This document shows positions 29,360-33,155 of a stretch of DNA of 64,000 bases, one piece after another. The notes under the pieces are model-generated. The model searched no databases. It was not told the origin of the DNA and was given only the letters and a program-made list of their open reading frames with translations. The stretch's first letter is position 1; every line of letters starts with the position of its first letter. Source of the DNA: an uncultured Schlesneria sp. (GTDB lineage Bacteria; Planctomycetota; Planctomycetia; Planctomycetales; Planctomycetaceae); contig CAIQIR010000137.1 of the NCBI GenBank assembly GCA_903871875.1, positions 1-64,000 on the forward strand, given 5' to 3'. Made by a program: the position numbers and the translations under genes.

Positions 29360-29956
29360 TCACGACCGACCGCGCGAGACCTCGGCATGGCGGAAGCAGT
29401 CCACCAGATGATCGTTCACCATGCCGACGGCTTGCATGAAGGCATAGCAAATCGTGCTGCCGACAAATTTAAAGCCACGCTGTTTCAGGCTTTTGCTCAT
29501 CGCGTCGGATTCGGGTGTGCTCGCCGGAACTTCGCTCAGTGACCGCCATCGATTTTGTTTCGACCGGCCTTCAACAAAACTCCAGATGTACTGGTCGAAG
29601 CTCCCGAACTCATCTTGCACGCTCAGAAACACTTTGGCGTTCTGAATGACGCTGGCAATCTTCAGTCGGTTTCGAACAATTCCCGGATTCGATAGCAACT
29701 CGGCCTGCTTCTTTTCCCCGTACCGGGCGAGAACCTGAGGTTCAAACTGATCGAAAGCCAAACGGTAGTTGTCGCGCTTCTTCAAAATGGTTTCCCAACT
29801 AAGCCCGGCCTGCGCGCCTTCGAGGATCAAAAACTCGAACAGCTTACGGTCATCATGAATGGGCACGCCCCATTCGCTGTCGTGATACTGCAGATTGGGC
29901 TCGGCTTTGGCCCATGGGCAACGGTAGATTTCGGTCGTTGGACGTCGTTTCGGCAT
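29360..29956 (-). CDS. tag: DNA-3-methyladenine glycosylase I
   Basis: Base-excision enzyme that removes 3-methyladenine from alkylated DNA. The 198-aa product has the Tag signature RCPWAKAEPNLQYHDSEWGV, then FEFLILEGAQAGLSWETIL with KKRDNYRLAF, and SNPGIVRNRLKIASVIQNAK. The Zn ligands of the family are present: Cys and His near the N-terminus (CPW, YHD) and the late pair in NDHLVDCFRH. ATG 29956 is preceded by GGAAG at 5-6 bases, which is why the frame's earlier start at 30001 is not used. Confidence 0.93.
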   Translation of the reverse strand: MPKRRPTTEIYRCPWAKAEPNLQYHDSEWGVPIHDDRKLFEFLILEGAQAGLSWETILKKRDNYRLAFDQFEPQVLARYGEKKQAELLSNPGIVRNRLKIASVIQNAKVFLSVQDEFGSFDQYIWSFVEGRSKQNRWRSLSEVPASTPESDAMSKSLKQRGFKFVGSTICYAFMQAVGMVNDHLVDCFRHAEVSRGRS

Positions 29957-30117
29957 CAGTTTCTTCCATTTTTGGATCAGGCAAATCCGGCCTACTGGCA
30001 AATCGCGATCGGCCGATCATGCGGCCGAGTCATCAGCTCAAGATCACCGTCAGTTAGCACTGTCATGGCCAACAGAAATCTATCAAGTAGTCGCCCGAAA
30101 AACTCGGCCGAAATCAG

Positions 30118-30151
30118 TTGACTCGCAATTAGTTTACATGTAATGTATTAT
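30118..30151 (+). promoter_or_regulatory. marR promoter with palindromic operator
   Basis: TTGACT (30118-30123), a 17-base spacer and TAATGT (30141-30146) form a vegetative-type promoter ahead of marR. The perfect palindrome TTACATGTAA (30134-30143) covers the end of the spacer and the first bases of the -10 box. The same palindrome in the same position lies before the pirin operon, so it is the predicted site of the MarR protein itself (autorepression). Confidence 0.7.
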
Positions 30152-30166
30152 CATGAAAGGTAAGCG

Positions 30167-30658
30167 GTGACCACCATGACGACCCATCAATTGCAACGTG
30201 AGCTGAAGAAGAAACATCCGTTCGAATCGCTTGAGCAAGAGGTCGACCTGAATATCGTGCGGACGAGCGACCAGTTTCAAAATCGGTTCGGCAAGCTGTT
30301 CCGCCAGTACGGCCTGACATCGTCACAGTACAATGTCTTGCGGATTTTGCGGGGCGAAGGCAAGCCGATGCCCAGTCTCGAAATCTCTAGCCGAATGATT
30401 CAAGTTGTACCGGCGATGACAGGGCTGATCGACCGTCTCGAAAAGCAGGGACTTGTCCGACGGCATCGCTGTACGGAAGATCGACGGGTGATTTTCATCG
30501 AGATTACGGAAGCCGGCGGAGACATGCTTCAACAACTGGACGAACCCGTGCTCGAATTACATCGTAGCCTGGTCGGACACTTGACCCGGACTGAGCTGAA
30601 GGACTTGAATCGACTGCTGGAAAAATGCCGTCAAAGCATCCAGAACGATGCAACTTGA
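30167..30658 (+). CDS. MarR-family transcriptional regulator
   Basis: A 163-aa winged-helix regulator. The core is LFRQYGLTSSQYNVLRILRG, GKPMPSLEISSRMIQVVPAM (recognition helix), TGLIDRLEKQGLVRRHRCTE and the wing DRRVIFIEITEAG, with dimerisation helices at both ends. AAAGG lies 6 bases ahead of GTG 30167 and 15 ahead of ATG 30176, so the GTG start is slightly favoured. It is followed by pirin, DoxX and Old Yellow Enzyme genes whose promoter shares its operator. By analogy with MarR proteins that control quinone and electrophile detoxification it probably senses such compounds. No conserved redox Cys is present; the only Cys residues are in RRHRCTEDRR and LLEKCRQ. Confidence 0.88.
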   Translation: MTTMTTHQLQRELKKKHPFESLEQEVDLNIVRTSDQFQNRFGKLFRQYGLTSSQYNVLRILRGEGKPMPSLEISSRMIQVVPAMTGLIDRLEKQGLVRRHRCTEDRRVIFIEITEAGGDMLQQLDEPVLELHRSLVGHLTRTELKDLNRLLEKCRQSIQNDAT

Positions 30659-30688
30659 GGGGATTTTCCTTTTTTTTAGAAAAATAGA

Positions 30689-30701
30689 TTACATGTAAGA
30701 T
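30689..30701 (+). promoter_or_regulatory. Operator and -10 box of the pirin-doxX-OYE operon
   Basis: The palindrome TTACATGTAA (30689-30698) is identical to the one before marR and again overlaps the -10 box by its last bases (TAAGAT, 30696-30701). Outside the core the two sites also share AG before it and TATT two bases after it. The -35 region is a run of T with no good match. This predicts co-repression of the downstream genes by the MarR protein. Confidence 0.7.
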
Positions 30702-30789
30702 ATTGATGCGACAGCAGTATTCATTCACAGGAGGGCTCGTCGGCCCTCCAACACACCGCCGGATGGTGGAAAAGAAAGGAACGATCATC

Positions 30790-31488
30790 ATGATGCAGAT
30801 TCGCAAGGCTAACGAACGGGGACATGCCGATCACGGCTGGCTGAATGCCTACCACACCTTCTCGTTTTCATCGTACCGCGACCCGCGATACATGGGCTTC
30901 CGGTCGCTGCGCGTGATGAACGAAGACAGGGTGGCGCCAGGCCAAGGATTCGGAACACATCCGCACCAAGACATGGAAATCGTGACCTATGTGCTCGAAG
31001 GAGCTCTGGAGCACAAAGATTCCATGGGAAACGGCGAAGTGTTGCGGCCAGGCGAGTTCCAGCGGATGTCCGCGGGAACAGGCATCACCCACAGTGAGTT
31101 CAATCCGTCGGAAAGTGAATCTGTTCATCTCTATCAGATCTGGTTGTATCCCGATCGAAAGGGACTGGATCCCAGCTATGAACAAAAACGGTTCACTGAA
31201 GCGGAACAACGAGATCAATTGCGGCTGGTGGCTTCGCCGACAGCAGAAAACGGTTCGCTACTGATCCATCAAGACGCGAGGATTTTCCTTTCGCAAATCA
31301 CGAAAGGAAGACAAGTCGTCCATGAAACAGTTCCAGGCCGTCATGCATGGTTACAGGTTTTGAGGGGTTCGGTCCTGCTGAACGGAGTCGATCTGCAAAC
31401 CAGCGATGGTGCAGCCGTCAGCGACGAAACCCGATTGACCATCCAGGCCACGAGTGATGCCGAGATCATGCTGTTTGATCTGGCCTAA
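30790..31488 (+). CDS. Pirin-family protein (putative quercetin 2,3-dioxygenase)
   Basis: A 232-aa bicupin. The N-terminal cupin has the metal site of pirins: FGTHPHQDMEIVTYVLEGAL (two His), EHKDSMGN, then MSAGTGITHSEFNPSESESV (His, Glu). It opens ANERGHADHGWLNAYHTFSF, the YhhW-type signature. The start could be 30790 or 30793, with AAAGGA about 8 bases upstream. First gene of a MarR-controlled operon with doxX and an OYE reductase. Members of this type can cleave flavonols, but the true substrate is unknown. Confidence 0.88.
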   Translation: MMQIRKANERGHADHGWLNAYHTFSFSSYRDPRYMGFRSLRVMNEDRVAPGQGFGTHPHQDMEIVTYVLEGALEHKDSMGNGEVLRPGEFQRMSAGTGITHSEFNPSESESVHLYQIWLYPDRKGLDPSYEQKRFTEAEQRDQLRLVASPTAENGSLLIHQDARIFLSQITKGRQVVHETVPGRHAWLQVLRGSVLLNGVDLQTSDGAAVSDETRLTIQATSDAEIMLFDLA

Positions 31489-31588: not shown

Positions 31589-32011
31589 ATGCCGAATTTA
31601 ATCCAAGGGCTGGCCAGCGTCGCGGGCCGAGTGATGATCGCCACGATTTTTTTGCTGAGTGCCGTCGGCAATAAGATCCCGAAATTCAACCAGGTTGCCA
31701 ATTACATGGCATCTGAAGGTGTGCCTCAACCGCAATTCATGCTGGTGGGCGCGATTGTATTTCTGATCGTCGGCAGCGTGTCGATCGTTCTGGGCTACAA
31801 AGCCCGCATCGGCGCCAGTTTGCTACTGGTTTTTCTGGTACTAGCGACCTATTACTTCCATGCCTTCTGGAAATTCGAAGGCCCCGAACAGCAACAACAA
31901 ATGATTCAATTCATGAAGAATCTTTCAATGATGGGAACGATGGTCTTCGTGATTGCGAACGGGTCTGGAGCGATGAGTTTGGACGCTCGCCGAGTGACAA
32001 CGGCCGCATGA
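31589..32011 (+). CDS. DoxX-family membrane protein
   Basis: A 140-aa inner-membrane protein with four hydrophobic segments (about 12-27, 51-69, 76-92, 112-127) and the family start VAGRVMIATIFLLSAVGNKI. ATG 31589 has AAAGAGAG upstream; it lies about 100 bp after the pirin gene and 43 bp before the OYE gene. DoxX proteins are linked to thiol and quinone redox balance in several bacteria, consistent with this operon. Confidence 0.85.
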   Translation: MPNLIQGLASVAGRVMIATIFLLSAVGNKIPKFNQVANYMASEGVPQPQFMLVGAIVFLIVGSVSIVLGYKARIGASLLLVFLVLATYYFHAFWKFEGPEQQQQMIQFMKNLSMMGTMVFVIANGSGAMSLDARRVTTAA

Positions 32012-32054: not shown

Positions 32055-33155
32055 ATGACCGCCCAAAGTCTGTTGACATCGTTCACGATGCAGGATTTGG
32101 TTCTTCGCAATCGCGTCGTCATGGCCCCCATGACGCGCTCACGTGCGGGAACACAGCGACTGCCAAATGACGTCATGGCTCGCTATTACGCCCAACGCAG
32201 TTCTGCAGGCTTGATCATTACCGAGGCGACGACGATTTCGGAAGAAGCCAACGGTTGGAATGAATCTCCGGGAATCTACACCGACGCGATGACAACCGCC
32301 TGGAAGCGGGTCGTTAACGCCGTGCATGAGCAAGGAGGATTGATCTTCCTTCAACTCTGGCACATGGGGCGTTCTTCCCACAGCAGTTTTCACCAGGGCA
32401 AGCTGCCGGTGGCTCCCTCCGCGATTAAGCTCAACGGGGACACCATTCACACTCCGACCGGCAAGCAACCGTACGAGGTGCCCCGTGCACTCGAGACCAC
32501 TGAAATTCCCCGCGTGGTTCGTGATTATCAACTCGCTGCCGAACGAGCCAATAGCGCCGGATTTGACGGCGTCGAAATCCATGGCGCCAATGGCTACCTG
32601 ATTGACGAATTTCTGCAGTCCAAGACCAATCACCGGCAGGACCAATATGGTGGCAGTGTCGAGAATCGCTTCCGATTCCTCCAAGAGGTTGTCGAGGCCG
32701 TGACGTCGGTCTGGCCTGCCTACCGAGTCGGTGTGCGGTTGTCGCCCAACGGAGTATTCAACGATATGGGCTCACCCGATTTCCGCGAGCAGTTCACTTA
32801 CACGGCCCAGCAACTCGACCAATATGGTCTGGCCTATCTTCATGTGATGGACGGGTTGGCTTTCGGATTCCACAATCTGGGCGAACCGATGACGTTGGCC
32901 GATTTTCGTCAGGTTTTTCGTGGGCCTCTGATCGGTAATTGCGGGTACTCGCAAGAAACCGCCGAGAGTGCGATTGCCGAAGGACATGCCGATTTGATCG
33001 CGTTTGGCCGGCCCTTTATCAGCAATCCTGATCTTGTGGAACGATTCAAACATGGCTGGCCGCTGACGGACATCGCACCGATGTCAGACTGGTACTCGCC
33101 CAGCGGCGAGAAAGGCTATACGGACTTTCACAGTTACTCGGCCCAAAAGGCCTGA
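32055..33155 (+). CDS. nemA: Old Yellow Enzyme family ene-reductase (NemA-like)
   Basis: An FMN enzyme reducing activated C=C bonds with NAD(P)H. The 366-aa product has RNRVVMAPMTRSRAG, LIFLQLWHMGRSSHSS, then ANSAGFDGVEIHGANGYLID with FLQSKTNHRQDQYGGSVENR, the hallmark of the group, and LIAFGRPFISNPDLVERF at the end. The substrate-binding His/Asn pair (EIHGANGYL) and the Tyr of DQYGGS are present. Last gene of the MarR-controlled operon and followed by a strong terminator; likely role is detoxifying quinones, enones or nitro compounds. Confidence 0.93.
   Translation: MTAQSLLTSFTMQDLVLRNRVVMAPMTRSRAGTQRLPNDVMARYYAQRSSAGLIITEATTISEEANGWNESPGIYTDAMTTAWKRVVNAVHEQGGLIFLQLWHMGRSSHSSFHQGKLPVAPSAIKLNGDTIHTPTGKQPYEVPRALETTEIPRVVRDYQLAAERANSAGFDGVEIHGANGYLIDEFLQSKTNHRQDQYGGSVENRFRFLQEVVEAVTSVWPAYRVGVRLSPNGVFNDMGSPDFREQFTYTAQQLDQYGLAYLHVMDGLAFGFHNLGEPMTLADFRQVFRGPLIGNCGYSQETAESAIAEGHADLIAFGRPFISNPDLVERFKHGWPLTDIAPMSDWYSPSGEKGYTDFHSYSAQKA

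Follow-up and report, generated by a model that had tools for sequence, protein, structure and literature searches.

In the parts of PMC6798810 that treat them, the MhqR and YodB/QsrR regulons comprise azoreductases, nitroreductases and ring-cleavage dioxygenases; the same source gives about 16-20 bp for the palindromic sites of the MarR family and describes an inactivation of MhqR that is not thiol-based. A second paper reports that the Staphylococcus aureus MhqR releases DNA via a quinone pocket (PMC12893000), and the passages on pirins in a third report that these proteins can be quercetinases (PMC5557065). The locus described here lies in a stretch of 64,000 nucleotides from an uncultured Schlesneria sp. 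(the window; Table 1) and gathers a MarR-family gene, a pirin, a DoxX-family protein and an old yellow enzyme around two copies of the palindromic core TTACATGTAA. Both copies were found where the sequence-only reading had placed them, one preceding marR and the other preceding pirin-doxX-OYE, with all these genes on the plus strand. A third copy in the window, which that reading did not see, is indeed absent: the extended string AGNTTACATGTAANNTATT starts only at 30131 and 30686 on the plus strand.

Table 1. Predicted genes and regulatory elements of the marR-pirin locus (positions in the window)
Feature	Position	Strand	Remarks
tag, DNA-3-methyladenine glycosylase I	29360-30001	minus	divergent from marR
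marR promoter	30118..30146	+	TTGACT 30118-30123, 17-nt spacer, TAATGT 30141-30146 inside the right half of operator 1
predicted operator 1, extended palindrome	30126..30151	.	core 30134-30143, 18-mer 30130-30147
marR, MarR-family winged-helix regulator	30167..30658	+	GTG 30167 or ATG 30176; PF01047 E=1.1e-12
T-run downstream of marR, immediately ahead of operator 2	30670..30677	+	
predicted operator 2, between marR and pirin	30681..30706	.	core 30689-30698, 18-mer 30685-30702
pirin (cupin, quercetinase-like)	30793..31488	+	ATG 30790 also possible; PF02678 E=2.6e-36, PF17954 E=1.7e-28
doxX, DoxX-family membrane protein	31589..32011	+	PF07681 E=1.5e-15
OYE, old yellow enzyme-type flavin oxidoreductase	32055..33155	+	PF00724 E=1.6e-82

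The regulator carries a MarR winged-helix domain (PF01047, 48.1 bits, cut-off 24.6); the nearest NCBIfam model of the OYE, N-ethylmaleimide reductase NF007899, reaches 336 bits, under its cut-off of 403. The tag gene is the upstream neighbour of marR in only 2 of 73 related loci, the window's own included, and is therefore not counted as a member of the predicted regulon. The two sites form a conserved operator pair, ordinary in kind, whose regulator is most likely an autoregulated MarR. To the reading that both are operators of the MarR encoded between them, which would repress marR and pirin-doxX-OYE, we give a probability of roughly 85%; this figure covers the pairing of operators with regulator and the repression, and binding, dimer, repression and inducer class are all deduced from sequence, conservation, linkage and co-occurrence. 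According to the proposed mechanism, a MarR dimer would recognise a palindrome close to ATAGTTTACATGTAAACTAT. Bound to operator 1, the dimer would mask the -10 of the TTGAC-17-TAAnnT promoter of marR and thereby repress its own synthesis; bound to operator 2, it would repress transcription of pirin-doxX-OYE. A quinone-like, phenolic or other electrophilic inducer would release MarR from DNA, and the quercetinase-like cupin, the DoxX membrane protein and the old yellow enzyme, then made together, may detoxify that inducer.

The conserved unit of the predicted operator is a palindrome of ~18-26 bp near ATAGTTTACATGTAAACTAT, symmetrical around the core. Of the two "identical palindromic operators" described from the sequence, the identity holds for the 10-bp cores only, half-site agreement over 13 bp being 8 and 9, and the shared AG...TATT flanks, present as described, are largely the outer arms of the longer palindrome of ~18-26 bp. 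The overlap with a -10 box at equal offset, claimed for both sites, is firm and conserved at marR but is not borne out at the pirin site, where relatives do not keep that -10; in the window this site offers TAAGAT (30696-30701) with TTTTTA as the hexamer at -35 distance. Across 60 marR-upstream sites, TTGAC occupies positions -16 to -12 from the core start (T/T/G/A/C in 92/92/90/82/92%) and the right half of the operator supplies TAAnnT 17 nt from it; T at +12 is found in 98% of these sites, compared with 73% that keep the symmetrical left-arm position, and this excess is most readily explained by a promoter -10 superimposed on the operator. In the 24 close downstream sites (at most 1 mismatch, within 130 bp), a T-run replaces TTGAC, each of six positions being T in 75-88%, and T at +12 is absent from the conserved columns. 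The T-run before operator 2 is possibly a marR terminator tail or a pirin promoter element; the generic scan found no terminator near it, and the generic promoter scan of the window found neither the marR promoter nor one at operator 2. No position could be assigned to the promoter of pirin.

A palindromic site at the regulator's own and neighbouring promoters, as expected for the MarR family, is thus found at the level of sequence and conservation. The conservation was assessed on 73 non-redundant loci, the window among them, with MarR at 46% identity or more; 13 duplicate loci and 24 homologues under 46% identity were left out of the counts. A MarR match was present in 124 of 149 genomes, and the loci were taken from the 30 best matches and from 80 of the 134 loci of a second search. 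The closest named relatives of the window MarR come from six Schlesneria MAGs (72-79%, Planctomycetaceae). At 0, at most 1 and at most 2 mismatches, the core occurs within 100 bp upstream of marR in 18, 39 and 60 of 72 loci (the contig of L094 being too short), with means of 0.03, 0.3 and 3.8 over 40 shuffles, and within 100 bp downstream in 10, 24 and 43 of 73 loci (shuffle means 0, 0.15 and 3.4). Control stretches gave 0/73 inside marR and 0/72 at 300-400 bp upstream at the same thresholds, and the homologues under 46% identity gave, for the core at no more than 1 mismatch, 0/24 upstream and 0/23 downstream. The 18-mer at up to 5 mismatches stands on both sides of marR in 31 of the 73 loci, and the arrangement of operator and marR recurs in many other planctomycete bacteria. 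In one genome (G018, locus L131, site 1762-1779), which has no pirin match at E<=1e-40, marR and the gene for an HlyD-type efflux adaptor point away from each other; the 18-mer is found 40 bp upstream of marR and falls in the space between the two genes provided that the adaptor begins later than its mechanically called ORF.

Clustering of the neighbour genes across the loci yielded pirin (50 proteins), DoxX (24, with a second group of 6), OYE (6), SDR (7), FMN reductase (4), flavodoxin-fold reductase (3), nitroreductase and others; these counts are lower bounds because some loci are short, the clusters may include the upstream neighbour, and for several new clusters one member was typed. By their predicted roles these families fit quinone- or electrophile-detoxifying targets, and, since the gene content is like that of the MhqR/QsrR quinone-stress regulons, we propose a repressor of its own gene that would be released from DNA in the presence of quinone-like or phenolic compounds. 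Judged from gene content alone, a quinone-like, phenolic or other electrophilic inducer is the class we somewhat favour. With a distinctly lower probability, MarR may bind both sites and respond instead to a flavonoid or aromatic acid, in a catabolic role, or to a drug-like efflux substrate: the quercetinase activity reported in the passages on pirins (PMC5557065), the homoprotocatechuate regulator HpaR as nearest NCBIfam model (score well below cut-off) and the marR of G018, divergent from its efflux adaptor, would all suit such a role, but DoxX and several flavin or NAD(P)H reductases are among the partner genes in relatives, and no complete catabolic route was found among the next few genes at the loci.

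As to how the regulator might sense a quinone-like or electrophilic inducer, 69 of the 73 subfamily MarR proteins have a cysteine at position 67 or 99, often swapped with serine, and both positions are probably near the DNA-binding parts; the window MarR has cysteines at 99 and 151 (numbered on an alignment row of 160 residues; the frame from GTG 30167 is three residues longer). Neither position is a cysteine in the remaining four proteins, of which the one from L094 is a fragment with a gap at 67. Two others of the four, from L028 and L054, have no cysteine at all although their loci keep the sites; a thiol is therefore not indispensable in every member of the subfamily, and a strictly thiol-based switch is ruled out. 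By analogy, a quinone pocket like that of the S. aureus MhqR, or cysteines 67 and 99, could serve inducer sensing here.

The sequence-only reading had named a genome-wide search for TTACATGTAA as a check, and this search found two exact sites, and no more, in 7.61 Mb of genome, 555 bp apart and flanking marR; the backwards-read control has 1 exact site. One-mismatch sites number 21 besides these, and the backwards control has 47 in all, one of which is its exact site; near-copies are therefore not enriched in the own genome. A search there for a wider regulon, allowing the 18-mer up to 3 mismatches, gave one extra place (C106:79865), equal to the backwards control (1). At the same threshold among 40 genomes, the 18-mer was found in 15/20 with a marR match at E<=1e-40 versus 0/20 without, where the cut-off was chosen after the lists were seen and G100 (match 1.9e-40), which misses the cut-off, is counted among the genomes without. 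In raw number the 18-mer is not commoner than its control (21 places vs 24); what stands out is the position of the sites: 18 of the 21 adjoin marR or precede pirin, and one more precedes a LigB gene. The backwards control is itself somewhat commoner with marR (11/20 genomes with close marR vs 6/20 without). The site is at marR in 13 of the 15 genomes, the exceptions being G013 (at pirin) and G094 (at LigB), and 5 of the 20 genomes having a close marR contain no 18-mer within 3 mismatches. A further search, of ten genomes with close marR, three of them (G003, G007, G103) also among the 40, found sites in 8/10 (15 places vs 10 for the control), with no 18-mer within 3 mismatches in G061 and G141.

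These counts make it very unlikely that the sites belong to some other regulator or that the motif serves planctomycetes as a promoter element in general. The copy upstream of marR does overlap the promoter -10, as such an element would, but the palindrome extends beyond the -10, the own genome holds only two exact copies of TTACATGTAA, and the 18-mer lies at marR or pirin in 18 of its 21 places and in none of the 20 genomes without close marR; on low copy number and site positions the general promoter element is rejected. Within the window, only the two cores match TTACATGTAA with at most 1 mismatch on either strand, and 100 shuffles gave a mean of 0.52 such matches and reached two in 10/100, so the window-only count is suggestive rather than decisive; for two unrelated random copies in the genome to fall so close together, the chance is, by our estimate, of the order of 1e-4. 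That the pair consists of two random copies of a 10-bp palindrome, to which the 10/100 shuffles lend some colour, is extremely improbable and is ruled out by the genome-wide rarity of TTACATGTAA and by the footprint conserved at marR across the 73 loci.

The reading of the sites as operators of a MarR regulon is thus supported by subfamily conservation and co-occurrence, to which sites upstream of some genes unlinked to marR can be added. With up to 3 mismatches, the 18-mer precedes an unlinked pirin in 4/16 cases in marR-bearing genomes versus 0/20 controls, or in 2/14 versus 0/20 without G003 and G013, which were found through the site itself. For the controls we took the 20 best-matching pirins among genomes that have no marR at E<=1e-40, skipping G008 (contig edge) and G100, G136 and G142 (beside a weaker marR match); of the 34 stretches fetched for this comparison, one test and one control stretch were truncated where their contig ends. 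G003, a single contig, carries the 18-mer at three places, on both sides of marR and 218 bp upstream of a pirin ~285 kb away, and a one-mismatch core lies closer to that pirin than the 18-mer does. In G013, a pirin and an FMN reductase lie on a different contig from marR with an exact core upstream of the pirin, and marR itself has a poor site only (6 mismatches). The 18-mer with 3 mismatches is located 103 bp before pirin in both G051 and G088, and G060 has a one-mismatch core 89 bp upstream of pirin, where the 18-mer is poor (6 mismatches). Several of the remaining unlinked pirins are more distant pirins.

A LigB-family ring-opening dioxygenase (PF02900, E=5e-30) is a likely further target, to judge from the sites before it. 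The sole 18-mer of G094 lies upstream of this gene, at 3 mismatches and unlinked to marR, and four close orthologues (75-83%) in G147, G129, G103 and G114 have operator-like sites with 6, 4, 5 and 5 mismatches; in the five genomes the sites lie 93-131 bp upstream (loci L115 and L167-L171). For scale, the 18-mer at up to 5 mismatches occurs in 1/145 control stretches of 100 bp, and the LigB scan spanned up to 280 bp each. Four distant LigB homologues of the window's genus have no operator-like site (8 mismatches), and a fifth, in G007, has 5 mismatches at 228 bp upstream. In the own genome, a distant LigB homologue (C131:35336-36199) is found ~3 kb from another MarR homologue (C131:39077-39508, 44% to the window MarR), possibly a parallel regulator-dioxygenase pair.

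To our knowledge, few planctomycete regulators have known sites, and for this phylum the locus provides a probable operator together with its likely regulator and targets. More tentatively, and in our opinion doubtfully as a whole, it could represent a Planctomycetia regulon against quinone, phenolic or electrophile stress that has an operator of its own, has spread to unlinked pirin and LigB genes, and whose MarR would sense electrophiles partly via Cys67 or Cys99, close to the parts that read the DNA. The proposed stress response is directly testable and would tie pirin, a protein that is widespread and whose role is not settled, to defence against quinones or phenolics. No description of the operator with this target set was found in the literature searched: the occurrence of TTACATGTAA examined in literature text was a primer, longer operator strings had no match there, and neither had a regulon combining MarR, pirin and DoxX or a combination of MarR, pirin and quinone repressor. 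Among the matches listed for a MarR and pirin operon none describes such a regulon by its title, and those for a planctomycete MarR binding motif are not relevant by title and the start of the abstract.

Among known systems, HpaR (TIGR02337) is the best NCBIfam match of the window MarR at 70.1 bits, under the cut-off of 121.2, so that it falls short of HpaR membership, and no homoprotocatechuate gene was found among the four neighbours scanned; the closest solved chain by sequence is 3u2r_A (E=8e-28, residues 14-156) from the PDB entry 3u2r, 'Regulatory protein MarR'. In the response of Pseudomonas fluorescens In5 to Rhizoctonia solani, pirin, quercetin 2,3-dioxygenase, azoreductase, LigB and DoxX are induced together, albeit in another phylum and with no MarR regulator named in the parts of the paper that describe this response (PMC5557065). 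The S. aureus MhqR operator, given in its paper as TATCTCGAA-aTCGAaATA, differs from the conserved ATAGTTTACATGTAAACTAT-like site found here, the main text of that paper has no match for pirin or DoxX, in contrast to the present locus, and the inactivation of MhqR it describes is not thiol-based, whereas Cys67 or Cys99 is present in 69/73 proteins here (PMC6798810). On the other hand, as far as the same text describes them, MhqR (of the MarR type) and YodB/QsrR of Bacillus subtilis and S. aureus are, like the regulator here with its predicted sites, small proteins with an inverted-repeat operator at the promoter, which in MhqR overlaps the transcription start, and their targets, reductases and dioxygenases, match those of the planctomycete loci in kind (PMC6798810).
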